Source of the DNA: Nodosilinea sp. FACHB-131
GTDB taxonomy: Bacteria > Cyanobacteriota > Cyanobacteriia > Phormidesmidales > Phormidesmidaceae
Reading direction: 5' to 3'
Assembly (NCBI RefSeq): GCF_014695395.1
Contig: NZ_JACJOF010000035.1
Span: 1-64,000 of the forward strand
Length of the DNA: 64,000 bases
Translations under genes and position numbers: made by a program
The notes under the pieces: generated by a model
Told to the model about the DNA's origin: nothing
Database searches by the model: none
Seen by the model: the letters and a program-made list of their open reading frames with translations, nothing else
In this document: in pieces, positions 47,149 through 64,000 of the stretch
Layout of the letters: the number at the start of each line of letters is the position of its first letter
How positions within the stretch are numbered: position 1 is the stretch's first letter

Positions 47149-49050
47149 ATGACAAGCTTTCCCATTGACCTGGGCGCATACCAGCGAATTACCCTCGATG
47201 CGTCTAACCCCACCCTCACCGACGAGCAGCGCAGTGCCCTCAAGGCCAACATTCAGCTGTGTCGGGATGCGATCGTGTTCTTCACTGCAACTGGCGCAGC
47301 GCGGGGCGTGGGCGGTCACACCGGCGGCCCCTACGACACCGTGCCCGAGGTGATGATTCTCGACGCGCTGTTTCGCGGTGCGGGCGACAAGTACGTGCCA
47401 ATTTTCTTTGACGAAGCAGGCCACCGGGTGGCCACCCAGTATCTACTGTCGGTGCTCAACGGCGACATGCCCGCCGAAGACCTGATGCACTACCGCGAAG
47501 CCCACTCCAAACTGCCCGGCCACCCCGAACTGGGGCTCACCCCCGGGGTTAAATTTAGCTCTGGGCGGCTGGGTCACATGTGGCCCTACGTCAACGGTGT
47601 GGCCCTGGCCAACCCCGGCAAAGTTGCCTTCTGCCTCGGTTCCGACGGCTCTCAGCAGGAGGGCAACGACGCCGAGGCAGCCCGCTTTGCGGTGGCCAAC
47701 CACGTCAACGTCAAGCTGCTGATCGACGACAACGACGTTACCATTGCCGGTCACCCCTCCAGCTACATGGGCGGCTTCAGCGTCAAGAAAACTCTGGAGG
47801 GCCACGGCCTGACCGTGCTCGAAGGCGACGGCGAAGACATCGACAGCCTCTACGCCAACATCTGTAAGGCAATCAACACCCCCGGCCCCGTGGCAGTGGT
47901 TAACAAGCGGGCCATGGCGGTCGGCATCGAGGGCATTGAGGGCAGCACCCACGGCCACGATGTGATCTCGGTGAAGGCGGCGATCGCCTACCTCACCGCC
48001 AAAGGCCACACCGCCGCCGTGGAGATCCTCGAAGGCATTACCGCCCCCAAAAATACCTACGAGTTTCAGGGTTGCAGCAAAGTTGTGGGGGCCAATCGCA
48101 ACGTGTTTGGCGATGCCATGGTCGAAGTGCTGGGCGAGCTGGATGAAATGGCCCGCAAAGAAAGCGTGCTGGTAGTCGACAGCGACCTGGAGGGCTCCTG
48201 TGGCCTGGCCCAGATCCGCAAGGCCTACCCTGAAATCTTCATCAGCGGCGGCATTCAAGAGCGGGGTAACCTGTCGGCGGCGGCGGGCTTTGGCATGGCC
48301 GAGGGCAAGCAGGGCGTCTTCGCTACCTTTGCAGCCTTCCTGGAGATGTGCATCTCTGAAATTACTATGGCGCGGTTGAACCGGTCTAACCTGCTGTGCC
48401 ACTTCTCCCACTCGGGCATCGACGATATGGCCGACAACACCTGCCACTTCGGCGTTAACAACTTCTTTGCCGACAATGGCCTGGAGGATGGCTATGAAAC
48501 CCGCCTTTACTTTCCCGCCGACCCCAACCAGATGAAGGCCTGCGTCAAAAAGGTTTTCCACGACCCCGGCTTGCGCTTTATCTTCTCCACCCGCTCGAAG
48601 GTGCCGATGATCCTCGACACTGAGGGCAACGAGATGTTTGGCGGCGACTACACCTTCACCCCCTGCAAGGATGAGGTGATCCGCGAGGGCACGGCGGGCT
48701 ACATCGTCACCTTTGGCGACTCGCTCTATCGCGCCCTCGATGCCGTCGAGCGGCTGAAGCAGGAGGGCATCGACGTGGGCCTGATCAACAAGTCTACCCT
48801 TAACGTGATCGATGAAGAGACCATGGCCAAGGTGGGCAAGGCCCCCTTTGTGCTGGTGACCGAGGCCTTTAACCGCAAGACTGGCCTAGGCAGCCGCTTT
48901 GGCTCTTGGCTGATGGAACGGGGCTACACGCCCAAGTTTGCCTTTATGGGTACCAACCACGAGGGCAGCGGCGGCCTGTGGGAGCAGTTTATTCACCAGA
49001 GCATTGACCCCGATGGCATTATGGCCAAAGTGAAGGAACTGGTGGGTTAG
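47149..49050 (+). CDS. Transketolase-like thiamine-diphosphate enzyme
   Basis: A 633-residue protein with the three transketolase domains. The ThDP/Mg site is visible as FCLGSDGSQQEGNDAEAARFA near 160-180 (GDG-type motif GSDG ... N) with IDDNDVTIAG near 198; the pyrimidine domain has VLVVDSDLEGS near 342 and ERGNLSAAAGFGMAEGKQGVFATFAAF near 374-400; the C-terminal domain carries IVTFGDSLYRALDAVERL near 523. It is shorter than and divergent from the Calvin-cycle transketolase (about 670 residues), so it is a paralogue of unknown substrate. Start ATG is preceded by ataggacgaaacact. A terminator follows, so it is probably monocistronic. Confidence 0.88.
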   Translation: MTSFPIDLGAYQRITLDASNPTLTDEQRSALKANIQLCRDAIVFFTATGAARGVGGHTGGPYDTVPEVMILDALFRGAGDKYVPIFFDEAGHRVATQYLLSVLNGDMPAEDLMHYREAHSKLPGHPELGLTPGVKFSSGRLGHMWPYVNGVALANPGKVAFCLGSDGSQQEGNDAEAARFAVANHVNVKLLIDDNDVTIAGHPSSYMGGFSVKKTLEGHGLTVLEGDGEDIDSLYANICKAINTPGPVAVVNKRAMAVGIEGIEGSTHGHDVISVKAAIAYLTAKGHTAAVEILEGITAPKNTYEFQGCSKVVGANRNVFGDAMVEVLGELDEMARKESVLVVDSDLEGSCGLAQIRKAYPEIFISGGIQERGNLSAAAGFGMAEGKQGVFATFAAFLEMCISEITMARLNRSNLLCHFSHSGIDDMADNTCHFGVNNFFADNGLEDGYETRLYFPADPNQMKACVKKVFHDPGLRFIFSTRSKVPMILDTEGNEMFGGDYTFTPCKDEVIREGTAGYIVTFGDSLYRALDAVERLKQEGIDVGLINKSTLNVIDEETMAKVGKAPFVLVTEAFNRKTGLGSRFGSWLMERGYTPKFAFMGTNHEGSGGLWEQFIHQSIDPDGIMAKVKELVG

Positions 49051-49114: not shown

Positions 49115-49157
49115 TGCGATCGCAGCCCAAGAAACCTGATGGGGAATGCTATCGGCG

Positions 49158-50204
49158 ATGAAAGTTGATGTATTTAAGATCGCCCAGAGTGGCCCCGACG
49201 ACCTGAGCGGTCCAGCCGCACTGGTGCAGCAAGGAACGCTAGACCCCAAAACTATCGTGGCGATTTTGGGTAAAACCGAGGGCAACGGCTGCGTGAATGA
49301 TTTCACCCGTGGGTTTGCGGTGGCCACCTTGAAGGGATACCTGCGGGGGCTGATGGGCGACGAGCTGACCAACCAGGTGGTGTTTGTCATGTCGGGGGGC
49401 ACTGAGGGGGTGCTAAGCCCTCACATGACTGTGTTTACCCGCCAGAGCGAGGGGCTGACGGGGCCGACTCAAATCGGGCTGGCCCTGGGGGTTTGTCACA
49501 CCCGCGACTTCTCGACCGATGAAATTGGCACATTGACGATGGTGGAGGAGGTGGCGGCGGGGGTAGAGCGGGCGATCGCCGCCGCTGGCCTCACTGCCGA
49601 GGCGGTTCACTTTGTGCAAATTAAATGCCCGCTGATCACGGCGGCTCGCTACACCCAGGCTGCCATTACCCAGGACAGCTATAAATCGATGGCCTACTCG
49701 CGGGGGGCCTCGGCCCTTGGGGTCGCTCTGGCCCTGGGCGAAGTGCAGCGGGGCGATCTCACCGCTACCGACATTTGCCACAACTACCGCCTCTATTCCT
49801 CAGTGGCTTCGACCTCGGCGGGGGTCGAGCTGCAAAACTGCGAAATTTTGGTGCTGGGCAATTCTCCCCAATCCCATAGCCGCTACCGCATTGGCCACAG
49901 CGTCATGACCCACGCCTTGGATATCGCCGCCGTCAACCGAGCCATCCACAGCGCTGGAGGAGTGGGTGAAGGCGGCCAGATCGTGAATGTGTTTGCCAAG
50001 GCCGAAGCCGACCCCTCGGGGCAGCTGCTCGGGCACCGCCACACCATGCTCGACGATTCCGATATCAATCACACCCGGATGGCTAGGGCAGTGGTGGGGG
50101 CTGCGATCGCAGCCGTTGTGCAAGACCCGATGATCTATGTGTCGGGCGGCAGCGAGCACCAGGGGCCATCGGGGGGCGGACCGATTGCCGTCATTGTTGG
50201 ATGA
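49158..50204 (+). CDS. Ring-opening amidohydrolase (cyanuric acid hydrolase / barbiturase family)
   Basis: A 348-residue member of the AtzD/TrzD/barbiturase family, which hydrolyses cyclic amides such as cyanuric acid or barbiturate. Three repeated domains each supply a Lys-Ser pair: [15 protein letters not shown] near 38 with [14 protein letters not shown] near 80; [12 protein letters not shown] near 157 with [15 protein letters not shown] near 215; [12 protein letters not shown] near 278 with [19 protein letters not shown] near 328-346. All family motifs are intact, so an active enzyme is expected. ATG at 49158 ([10 protein letters not shown]) is preferred to 49146. Which ring it opens cannot be told; position after a terminator means own promoter. 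Confidence 0.92.
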
Positions 50205-51014: not shown

Positions 51015-53234
51015 ATGGGATTTTCTGCCTCTAAGACTTGCGCTTGTCAGAATATCGGTCGATGTCAGGCCGGAGAGGCAGGCCGGCTTTTTCTGTGGTT
51101 TCCGGTTCCCCACACGTTGACAAAAATCATTCCTTTCCTAAAGCAAGAGTTGCTCGAGTTTGAGTTGATGCAAGAGCGACCGGGTTTGAGTATAGCCTGC
51201 AAGTTTTCTCAAGCCCAAGGTGTTGCCCAAAGCCTGGCTCGACTGGTTGCACCGAGAGAACTGAGAGAAACCCAAGTTCTATTTGTTCGGGGTGCGGTAC
51301 AGCCTCAGCTGCAAGACTTTAGCGACATTTCCTCCCTACAGCGCTTTATCAAAGTGAGTCAATCCGATTGGCTGGTGGATATGTTGGCTAGCGATCGCGT
51401 CACCAGTCATTTTCAACCGATTGTTTCGATTGACGATACGGCTCAAATTTATGGATACGAATCCCTTTTGCGAGGGCTAGATGAGCACGGCAACTTAGTT
51501 ATGCCCGGCCCCATTTTTGAGCTAGCAGCCGAAGCCGGTTTGTTGCCGCAGCTAGACCGGGTAGCTCGGCTTAGCGCCATTAACCAAGCTAGCCAGCACA
51601 ACTTGGCGGGGCGTATTTTTATCAACTTTTCCCCCACAGCGCTGTATGACCCAGTGTCTTGCCTGCGGAGCACGGTAGACGCCATCGATAGAGCCGGTAT
51701 TCTTCACGAACAGGTTGTGTTTGAGGTTGTTGAGTCAGACAACCCTCAAGACTTAGACCACCTTAAAACAGTTTTGAAATATTATCGAGATGCTGGTTTC
51801 GCCGTTGCCCTAGACGATTTAGGGTCTGGATATTCCGGCTTAAATCTGCTGCACCAGCTGCGTCCCGATTTTGTCAAGCTGGATATGGAGCTAATTCGAA
51901 ATGTTCACGTTGACCTCTACAAAGCTTCTATTACTGAAAAGCTCTTAGAAATCGCGCAAAATCTGAATATTAAAACCGTTGCTGAAGGAATTGAATGCGT
52001 TGAAGAGTTGAACTGGTTGCAGGAGCGAGGGGCTACCTTTGCCCAGGGCTATTTGATTGCTAAACCTGGGGCTACACCGGCTAAAACGACGCCGTGCTTT
52101 AACTCGAAAGCGGTGTCGCTCACTTCAGCGTCTTTGCAGCCAGCGGTGCAACAGGTACAACATCAAACTGCGCCTGAGCGCATTGTTGCAGCTGTAACTC
52201 AACACATTCGACAGTCGCTGAAGCTAGATGAAATTCTGCAAACTACAGCGGATGAAGTTCGCCAACTGTTTGAGGTCGATCGAGTCGTTATCTATCGGTT
52301 TGAACCCGACTGGAGCGGGTTAGTGGCGGTAGAGTCTTTGGCAGAGGGGTGCCCGTCTATTTTGGGTTTCCATGTCATGGATACCTGCTTCAAGACGACC
52401 CATGCGGCTTACTACCAGCAGGGCAACACCCGAGCGATCGAAGACATTGAAACGGCGGGGCTCATGTCGTGCCATGTTGAACTACTTCAGAGCTTAAATA
52501 TTCGAGCGAATCTGATTGTGCCGATTCTGCAAAAAGAGCGACTGTGGGGGCTGTTGATTGCCCACCAGTGCAGCGAGACGCGCCAGTGGCAGCAGTCGGA
52601 GATCAATTTGTTTTATCAGCTCGCTGGGCAGGCGGCGATCGCCATTCAGCAAGCGGAGCTCTATCACCAGCTGCAAACTGCCAACCAAGAGCTCCAGCGC
52701 CTAGCTTCGGTGGATGGGTTGACCCAGCTGGCCAACCGTCGCTGTTTTGACGATCGGCTGAGCGCAGAATGGCAACGGCTGGCCCGAGAGCAGGCTCCCC
52801 TATCTTTGATTTTGTGTGATGTAGACTGCTTCAAGCTCTACAACGATACCCATGGCCACCTGGCCGGAGACGATGCGCTGCGGCAGGTGGCCGACGCCAT
52901 TGTAAAAGCCTCTAGGCGCCCATCTGATTTGGCGGCTCGCTATGGTGGTGAAGAGTTTGCGATTATTTTGCCCAATACCACCGCTGAGGGGGCGATCGCC
53001 GTGGTCGAGGCAATTCAGGCTAATTTAGCGGCCTTACAACTGCCCCATCCCCAATCTCAGGTCAGTGACTTGATGACGCTCAGCTTTGGCGTAGCAACGG
53101 TTGTGCCCCAGAGTCAACTGTCTTCTGCGACCTTGATCGCTACCGCTGACCAAGGTCTCTATCGAGCAAAAGCCCGCGGAAAAAACTGTGCGGTGCAGAC
53201 GAGCTTTGGAGAAATAGCAGCGTCATCCCAATGA
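51015..53234 (+). CDS. EAL - cyanobacteriochrome-type GAF - GGDEF protein
   Basis: A 739-residue soluble protein that should both break and make c-di-GMP. EAL domain (about 118-355) keeps the metal and catalytic set: E149 (ESL), N204 (INFSP), E240 (FEVVE), D267-D268 (LDDLGSG), K288 (KLD), E324 (VAEGIE), Q344. GAF domain (about 386-548) has DTCF at 456-459 and SCH at 485-487, the two-cysteine DXCF pattern of phycoviolobilin-binding cyanobacteriochromes. GGDEF domain (about 558-725) has intact GGEEF at 644-648 and the inhibitory RxxD site R635-D638. The N-terminal ~115 residues are not recognised. Light control of c-di-GMP is inferred. Monocistronic after the maa terminator. Confidence 0.92.
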   Translation: MGFSASKTCACQNIGRCQAGEAGRLFLWFPVPHTLTKIIPFLKQELLEFELMQERPGLSIACKFSQAQGVAQSLARLVAPRELRETQVLFVRGAVQPQLQDFSDISSLQRFIKVSQSDWLVDMLASDRVTSHFQPIVSIDDTAQIYGYESLLRGLDEHGNLVMPGPIFELAAEAGLLPQLDRVARLSAINQASQHNLAGRIFINFSPTALYDPVSCLRSTVDAIDRAGILHEQVVFEVVESDNPQDLDHLKTVLKYYRDAGFAVALDDLGSGYSGLNLLHQLRPDFVKLDMELIRNVHVDLYKASITEKLLEIAQNLNIKTVAEGIECVEELNWLQERGATFAQGYLIAKPGATPAKTTPCFNSKAVSLTSASLQPAVQQVQHQTAPERIVAAVTQHIRQSLKLDEILQTTADEVRQLFEVDRVVIYRFEPDWSGLVAVESLAEGCPSILGFHVMDTCFKTTHAAYYQQGNTRAIEDIETAGLMSCHVELLQSLNIRANLIVPILQKERLWGLLIAHQCSETRQWQQSEINLFYQLAGQAAIAIQQAELYHQLQTANQELQRLASVDGLTQLANRRCFDDRLSAEWQRLAREQAPLSLILCDVDCFKLYNDTHGHLAGDDALRQVADAIVKASRRPSDLAARYGGEEFAIILPNTTAEGAIAVVEAIQANLAALQLPHPQSQVSDLMTLSFGVATVVPQSQLSSATLIATADQGLYRAKARGKNCAVQTSFGEIAASSQ

Positions 53235-60883: not shown

Positions 60884-61261
60884 ATGCTGCTTTATCTGCT
60901 CAGTATTTTGACTACGGCGCTGTCGCTGCTGCTGGTAGACGCGATTTTCCCTGGAGTAGTGTTGGCCAATTTTTCGGCGGCGATGGTAGCGGCGGTAGCC
61001 ATTGGCATTGTCAACGGCATCATTAAGCCGGTGCTGTTTATTCTGTCGTTGCCCATTACTATCCTGACTCTGGGCTTGTTTTCGCTGGTAGTCAACGGCC
61101 TCTGCTTCTGGCTGGCATCGCTGGTGACACCAGGCTTTGCGGTGCACGGGTTTTGGGCGTTCATCGTCGGCCCCATCGTGCTGTCAGTGGTATCGACCGC
61201 GTTAAACAAATTTTTTGTCGGTCAGACCCTTAAACCTCGGGCAAAAGAGATCGAAGGATAG
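60884..61261 (+). CDS. Phage holin superfamily IV-like membrane protein
   Basis: A 125-residue membrane protein with four hydrophobic helices: LLYLLSILTTALSLLLVDAIF, FSAAMVAAVAIGIVNGIIKPVLFIL, SLPITILTLGLFSLVVNGLCFWLASL and GFWAFIVGPIVLSVVSTALNKFF. The N-I-KP motif in GIVNGIIKPVL is the hallmark of this DUF (PF04020). Although named after a mycobacteriophage holin, chromosomal members are ordinary membrane proteins of unknown role; no phage genes are near. Its last 32 bases overlap the end of the convergent REC-GGDEF gene. Confidence 0.85.
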   Translation: MLLYLLSILTTALSLLLVDAIFPGVVLANFSAAMVAAVAIGIVNGIIKPVLFILSLPITILTLGLFSLVVNGLCFWLASLVTPGFAVHGFWAFIVGPIVLSVVSTALNKFFVGQTLKPRAKEIEG

Positions 61262-62229
61262 AGGTAGCGCTGACCGCGCCTGGGTTAGCCGACTGCTCAG
61301 GGCTAGGGGGCATGACGTAGATGGCTTGGTACTGGTTACGGCCCTGGGCCTTGGCCTGGTAGAGGGCCTGATCGGCGGTAAACACCAGGTCAGAGGGTAG
61401 ATAATCGGCCATGGGTAGCACGTTGGCGACGCCGCAGCTAATCGTGACGATCGCGCTGGGAGCGGTGTGGTGGGGCAGCCCCCGCTGCTGAATCGCAGTC
61501 ACTAGGCGCTGGCTGATGACGGTCGCCCCCTCTAGAGTGGTGTTGGGCAAAATGATGGCAAACTCTTCACCGCCGTAGCGGGTGACGATGTCGGCCGGGC
61601 GGCTGATGCACTGGCTGAGGGTTTTGGCGACTTCCTGAAGGCAGCGATCGCCAGCCTGGTGCCCATAGTGGTCGTTGTAGTTTTTGAAATGGTCAATGTC
61701 GCAGATCACCAGCGACAGCGGCAGGTGTTCGCGTACGCCTCGGCCCCACTCCTGCAAGAGATATTCGTCGAAGCGGCGGCGGTTGGCCACCTGGGTGAGG
61801 CTATCAATCAGCGTCAGCTGCTGGAGCTGGTAGTTGGCCTCCCGCAGCTGAATCTCCAAGCGGTGCTGCAAAATTAGCCGCCGCACCCGCTGGCGCAGCA
61901 CCGCCCAGTTAATCGGTTTGGTGACGTAGTCAACCACACCAATTTCAAACGCTTGGTCTACCGATTTTTCATCCTCTAGGCCGGTAATCATCAGCACCGG
62001 TGCCAGGTTGCCCTGGGTTAAATCCTGTAGTCGGCGGCAGACCTCGAAGCCGTCTAACACCGGCATCAGCGCGTCCAGCAGTACCAAATCGGGCACGTGA
62101 TAAAAGTACAGGTTTAGGGCCGCTTCTCCGTGAGAAGCTTCGATCACGTGGTAACCCTCGCGCTCCAGGTAGCGGGTCAGCATGTGGCGGATAAACGGGT
62201 CATCGTCGGCCACCAAAATTACCGCTGAA

Positions 62230-62246
<17 letters not shown>
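61230..62246 (-). CDS. Response regulator with GGDEF output (diguanylate cyclase)
   Basis: A 338-residue REC-GGDEF protein. The receiver (about 8-125) has acidic pocket ADDDPF and phospho-Asp in DLVLLDALMPVLDGF near 57, with Lys in VTKPINW near 108. A coiled linker (LILQHRLEIQLREANYQLQQL) leads to the GGDEF domain with LTQVANRRRFDEYL near 155, the active motif GGEEF in TRYGGEEFAI near 238 and the inhibitory site RPAD five residues before it. It makes c-di-GMP when phosphorylated (family knowledge). Its ATG lies inside the end of the upstream hybrid kinase gene (17-base overlap), so the kinase is the probable input. Confidence 0.95.

Positions 62247-64000
<1,754 letters not shown>

Follow-up and report, generated by a model that had tools for sequence, protein, structure and literature searches.

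A predicted light-regulated c-di-GMP protein of Nodosilinea with a cyanobacteriochrome-type GAF between EAL and GGDEF domains

A protein encoded in the window, that is, the whole analysed stretch of 64,000 nucleotides from Nodosilinea sp. FACHB-131, appears to unite in a single chain a sensor for blue/green light with two opposing enzymes, one that destroys and one that makes c-di-GMP, probably assembled in order that the colour of light sets the c-di-GMP level. The best explanation of the whole, with a probability of roughly 0.68, is a two-unit light-regulated c-di-GMP enzyme, in which blue light would raise c-di-GMP and the phosphodiesterase would be set mainly by the N-terminal domain (NTD). 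The order EAL-cyanobacteriochrome (CBCR)-GGDEF is already known from Cph2, according to the available text of PMC5812497, and to judge from the sequences the window protein has the layout of the Cph2 C-terminal half, arrived at with an EAL of another kind. A literature search for "EAL-GAF-GGDEF" returned no record, and an earlier description is possible.

Domain layout and the predicted photosensor

The order EAL-GAF-GGDEF, which a preliminary description had read from the DNA, coincides with the Pfam domain boundaries (EAL 120-351, E 1.5e-54; GAF 404-544, E 7.2e-23; GGDEF 564-724, E 3.1e-50), and residues 1-118 have no match to a curated Pfam domain. The coordinates of all features are listed in table 1. 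Conservation was followed in 25 full-length fusions, no two of which are identical, namely the window protein, 10 proteins from a sample of 386 cyanobacterial genomes and 14 from named genomes.

Table 1. Features of the EAL-GAF-GGDEF gene, with positions in the window
Feature	Residues	Position	Strand	Basis or remark
Whole gene, NTD-EAL-GAF(CBCR)-GGDEF		51015-53234	+	739 aa; orthologs share the same start
NTD	1-117	51015-51365	+	predicted beta-alpha-beta-beta-alpha-beta, ferredoxin-like; without Pfam family
Cys motif C9-x-C11-x5-C17		51039-51065	+	fusion alignment; model of low confidence at residues 1-17
EAL	120-351	51372-52067	+	Pfam; catalytic residues retained
EAL-GAF linker	353-385	52071-52169	+	variable; 45% mean pairwise identity; pLDDT <50 at 366-385
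GAF, DXCF cyanobacteriochrome type	386-548	52170-52658	+	PDB search, conservation
D456-T-C458-F459 (second Cys)		52380-52391	+	sequence, TePixJ alignment, orthologs
C486-H487 (canonical chromophore Cys and its His)		52470-52475	+	sequence, TePixJ alignment, orthologs
Predicted helix, GAF into GGDEF	527-564	52593-52706	+	continuous in the model
GGDEF	564-724	52704-53186	+	Pfam
GGEEF	644-648	52944-52958	+	within GGDEF
RxxD	635-638	52917-52928	+	within GGDEF

Both c-di-GMP domains had been said to keep their catalytic residues, and this holds throughout the fusions. In detail, E149, R153, N204, E237, D267, D268, K288, E324 and Q344 of the EAL, as well as D602, K607, N610, D619 and the GGEEF of the GGDEF, are present in 25/25. 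With these residues in place the EAL is a predicted active phosphodiesterase and the GGDEF, which has the GG[DE]EF and the metal and substrate residues, a predicted active diguanylate cyclase. The RxxD site that had also been noted is present here (R635 and D638), but the family does not retain it throughout: this feedback site of the cyclase is not conserved, with R635 in 14/25 and D638 in 22/25 fusions.

The assignment of the GAF to the DXCF class of cyanobacteriochromes is borne out, as far as sequence comparison goes, by PDB matches, by a gapless alignment to TePixJ and by the conservation among orthologs. In the phmmer search of residues 387-548 against PDB sequences, CBCR GAFs rank first and phytochromes lower among the best 60 of 107 distinct sequences at E ≤0.001. 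The top match overall is 6oap, which has no DXCF Cys in the alignment, and the TePixJ chain 3vv4 is found at E 5.1e-34. The alignment to TePixJ that had been suggested as a check, run on residues 387-548, places both the DXCF and the C-H stretches at equal positions without a gap; TePixJ differs in being annotated in the PDB as a methyl-accepting chemotaxis protein and not as a c-di-GMP enzyme. The third GAF of a Cph2-like protein of Synechocystis salina (L066) is likewise 44% identical to the window GAF over 163 residues, gapless and with both Cys present. The WXDXXL motif with its Trp marks red/green types (PMC11284453, available text); here V454 stands two residues before D456 and the Trp is absent.

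D456-T-C458-F459 and C486-H487 are present as first described, C486 lying 27 residues past F459. Among the fusions, D456, F459 and C486 are invariant (25/25 each), C458 is found in 24 and H487 in 23, two orthologs having Tyr instead of the latter. For comparison, the tree has 36 GAF-GGDEF rows that are not fusions, and 18 of these carry the motif, E-X-C-F included. The one ortholog with Gly in place of C458 (L057) indicates that some orthologs can do without dual-Cys chemistry. It belongs to Nostoc sp. 'Peltigera membranacea cyanobiont' 210A and is a natural single-Cys DXCF variant.

Gene content supports a phycocyanobilin-making host, since both PcyA and heme oxygenase appear to be encoded. 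The genome has a single match to the bilin reductase family; with the PcyA equivalog model, for which the cut-off is 206, it scores 343.7 bits. Heme oxygenase is likewise matched once, in a stretch that has no NCBIfam match. Both are general cyanobacterial genes.

The N-terminal domain and the spread of the family

The N-terminal 115 residues had been called an extra unknown domain. The lack of a Pfam family agrees with this, but the domain is not an isolated one, since it regularly accompanies a single EAL lineage. As a query on its own, it gave 26 matches in 25 of the 386 cyanobacterial genomes, all 26 with this EAL: 11 fusions, 14 stand-alone proteins and one fusion-type EAL-only protein of genome G019. 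The stand-alone NTD-EAL proteins are about 380 aa long and occur in 14/386 genomes, one of which (G008) has the fusion too, and also in records labelled Rubrobacter, Gemmatimonadota, Deltaproteobacteria/Myxococcales and Ectothiorhodospiraceae; the NTD-EAL lineage is thereby found in records of five phyla. For instance, the stand-alone protein L067 of Lyngbya sp. CCAP 1446/10 shares NTD and EAL with the window protein (53% over residues 8-370), whereas the chains of this family, in the other phyla as well (Rubrobacter, Gemmatimonadota, Myxococcota, Ectothiorhodospiraceae), have neither GAF nor GGDEF. In one uncultured cyanobacterium the NTD-EAL extends over two overlapping frames (L108:5917-7052), through a frameshift or a sequencing error.

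The structure model gives the NTD the order beta-alpha-beta-beta-alpha-beta, and residues 21-110 reach pLDDT 83-94; residues 1-17, which hold C9, C11 and C17, have pLDDT <50. C9 and C11 are conserved in 25/25 and C17 in 24/25 fusions. A CxxC near the start is present in 8 of 15 stand-alone NTD-EAL members from other proteins and missing in seven, so the Cys motif of the NTD is not universal.

Three assignments of the domain were tried and rejected. As a degraded GGDEF it reached a probability of 0.1% in profile comparison, against a GGDEF profile of only 6 sequences; some structures of tandem GGDEF-EAL proteins can be aligned to the full-length model, starting near residue 20. As a BLUF it reached 0.4% with hhalign, against a small profile of 6 BLUF sequences, and the Pfam scan of 31 family members gave no BLUF match. 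BlrP1 (BLUF-EAL) resembles the window protein in having a small alpha/beta N-terminal domain before the EAL and differs in that the window NTD has no BLUF similarity, either in Pfam or in profile comparison. A PII/PstA-like domain obtained a best Foldseek E of 8.4e-3, with none ≤0.001. VIA-align Z scores were ≤8.3, with PII, PstA and SbtB at 7-8, a range that the tool calls common, and no family is therefore claimed for the NTD. The profile search of the PDB with the NTD gave FtsY as its best match, at E 0.077. A tentative and rather doubtful proposal is that the NTD would be an undescribed sensory domain, whose Cys motif would bind metal or sense redox, and that the whole protein would be an integrator of two inputs.

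The full architecture was found in 11/386 sampled cyanobacterial genomes (E ≤1e-110), the window's genome included. The same sample holds a broken copy (L031), without the N-terminal part and the GGDEF end, and an EAL-only copy (L032). The scan of named genomes gave at least 14 further full-length proteins among the best 80 of at least 581 pattern matches, and the carriers among the matches listed are Nodosilinea, Leptolyngbya, Nostoc, Mojavia, Tolypothrix, Chlorogloeopsis, Dendronalium and others; one carrier that can be grown in culture is Chlorogloeopsis fritschii PCC 6912 (L071). Within the window's genus (26 genomes), the full protein occurs in 11 genomes and an EAL-only form in three, while 12 have no match at E ≤1e-150. 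The three EAL-only proteins are 80, 77 and 76% identical to the window protein over the first 360-369 residues and terminate inside the EAL-GAF linker. The contig of the EAL-only form G388 agrees with L065 in length and coordinates, and the two are probably one record.

Eight other genes neighboring the fusion in the window were also searched for. None lies around the EAL-only genes of the genus (stretches of 9.0, 13.0 and 6.6 kb), and eight and six of them, respectively, surround the genus fusion genes L184 and L185. Two genes upstream of the fusion in the window is an AtzD/TrzD-family ring-opening amidohydrolase (49146-50204; Pfam PF09663, E 5e-142), which adjoins a transketolase-like gene (47149-49050). 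A second c-di-GMP gene of the window, as read from its sequence, is a receiver-like plus GGDEF response regulator (61230-62246, minus strand), directly adjoining a histidine-kinase-like gene (62230-63885). In another record of the same genus (L175:1480-3276), a second EAL frame comes after a BLUF-EAL frame whose EAL residues are altered.

Coupling of the sensor to the two enzymes

The sensor had been described as wired to both enzymes. This description is supported for the GGDEF, which is joined to the GAF by a segment of fixed length modelled as one helix, but not for the EAL, which has a variable linker modelled as disordered and sensor-free EAL-only relatives. In detail, the GAF-GGDEF segment 545-567 has 23 residues in 25/25 fusions and 86% mean identity, whereas the EAL-GAF span 345-389 ranges from 40 to 48 residues among the same proteins and its residues 353-385 have a mean pairwise identity of 45%. 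The full-length AlphaFold2 model (mean pLDDT 82) has one helix running from the GAF into the GGDEF with pLDDT 65-85 (65-77 in the blocks spanning 541-570), and models residues 366-385 of the EAL-GAF linker as disordered (pLDDT <50). Its pTM of 0.49 leaves the placement of the domains unsure. From the linker conservation and this model we infer that the GGDEF would be directly light-controlled and the EAL loosely tethered.

Under the favoured two-unit explanation, residues 1-352 would represent a mostly stand-alone phosphodiesterase family, with a ferredoxin-like NTD carrying the Cys motif and a predicted-active EAL, and residues 386-739 a DXCF cyanobacteriochrome on a predicted-active GGDEF. 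The GAF would attach phycocyanobilin through C486, possibly converting it to phycoviolobilin, and would toggle between two states, one absorbing blue, with C458 as a further ligand of the bilin, and one absorbing green or teal. Blue light would switch the cyclase on through the rigid GAF-GGDEF helix, by analogy with Cph2 and SesA, and the phosphodiesterase on its flexible linker would be governed mainly by its own NTD. The net outcome would be a rise of c-di-GMP in blue light, c-di-GMP being drained otherwise.

In the Ses proteins of Thermosynechococcus (SesA, SesB and SesC) the sensor precedes the enzymes, unlike the window protein, in which the EAL precedes the sensor. Both are similar in that DXCF cyanobacteriochromes govern c-di-GMP synthesis or breakdown in SesA/SesB/SesC (PMC5871770, PMC8846402). 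According to the available texts, blue light activates the cyclase of the Cph2 CBCR-GGDEF (PMC5812497) and that of SesA (PMC5871770, PMC8846402), and in SesC one such GAF controls cyclase and phosphodiesterase oppositely (PMC5871770, PMC8846402). The window protein could act in the latter manner, a single photosensor driving synthesis in blue and breakdown in green light through one rearrangement of the dimer. The retention of both active sites in 25/25 fusions, the example of SesC, itself a bifunctional photoreceptor (PMC5871770, PMC8846402), and the equal domain order of Cph2 (PMC5812497) are in line with such a switch; the EAL-GAF linker, being long, variable and of low confidence, and the sensor-free NTD-EAL proteins of 14/386 genomes plus G019 and of 3/26 genomes of the genus argue against it, and it is considered unlikely, though worth keeping in view.

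A photosensor that is blind or sees a single colour, its second Cys serving no photochemistry or light being a weak modulator of what would mainly be a phosphodiesterase, is improbable. The Gly at C458 in one ortholog and the Tyr at H487 in two would suit it, as would the finding that the second Cys is dispensable for isomerisation in one DXCF protein (PMC11284453, available text), but the near-complete retention of C458 (24/25) and the invariance of D456, F459 and C486 (25/25) speak against it.

Origin of the parts

All trees are of the "quick" type, with SH-aLRT support only and long branches. In the EAL tree, the fusions and the EAL-only L032 and L065 stand opposite 30 stand-alone proteins across a branch with support of 100, and four Cph2-like EALs are far off, across another such branch of length 2.7. 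Similarly, the EAL profile scores are 341-371 bits for the cyanobacterial stand-alone proteins vs 83-112 bits for the Cph2-like EALs. By its placement in the tree, the EAL half was not derived from Cph2. In the GAF-GGDEF tree, all 25 fusions are on one side of a branch with support of 100, and the AU test does not reject (p 0.43) a grouping of these fusions with the five rows of Cph2 type. L032 and L065 fall among the fusions in the EAL trees, and a clade of the fusions alone is not rejected (AU p 0.08); the fusion may have been gained once and lost in places, or may have had another history.

In the 1291-aa frame of the Cph2-like L066, a single collinear match spans EAL, GAF and GGDEF of the window protein (37% over 645 columns). 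The window protein differs from Cph2 in having only one GAF and one GGDEF, that is, neither the GAF-GAF phytochrome module nor the first GGDEF, and an EAL from another lineage with a different N-terminal domain. That it is a Cph2 which simply lost its GAF-GAF-GGDEF front is very improbable, given that the EAL groups with the stand-alone family across the long branch from the Cph2-like EALs and that the NTD is the one of that family, despite the equal domain order, the collinear match and the common origin of the GAF-GGDEF halves that is not rejected.

Among 19 cyanobacterial EAL-only loci, which include near-copies and some stretches that end close to the gene, two (L167 and L069) adjoin a downstream same-strand gene for a CBCR-like GAF-GGDEF protein, the GAFs of which lack DXCF. 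In these loci (L167:5440-9174 and L069:5971-9815), NTD-EAL is followed about 60 and 290 bp on, respectively, by a GAF-PAS-PAS-GAF-GGDEF gene. After the Rosetta-stone idea, the pairs hint at a version of the window protein whose parts are not fused. Equally suggestive, 4 of 12 loci of other phyla (L101, L106, L111 and L118) adjoin a same-strand GGDEF-bearing frame. In the Aquisalimonas record (L118:5536-7590), a PAS-GGDEF gene is directly upstream of NTD-EAL on the same strand.

Proteins that combine a light sensor with both c-di-GMP enzymes pose the question of which enzyme is controlled by light. This family offers natural dissections of the problem, that is, full fusions, EAL-only forms of the same genus and adjoining unfused genes, and it also flags an undescribed regulatory domain linked to one EAL lineage across phyla. 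If the two-input reading were true, blue/green light would set the synthesis of c-di-GMP and a chemical signal its breakdown within one chain, and the relatives within the genus that have the EAL only would be the light-independent form.
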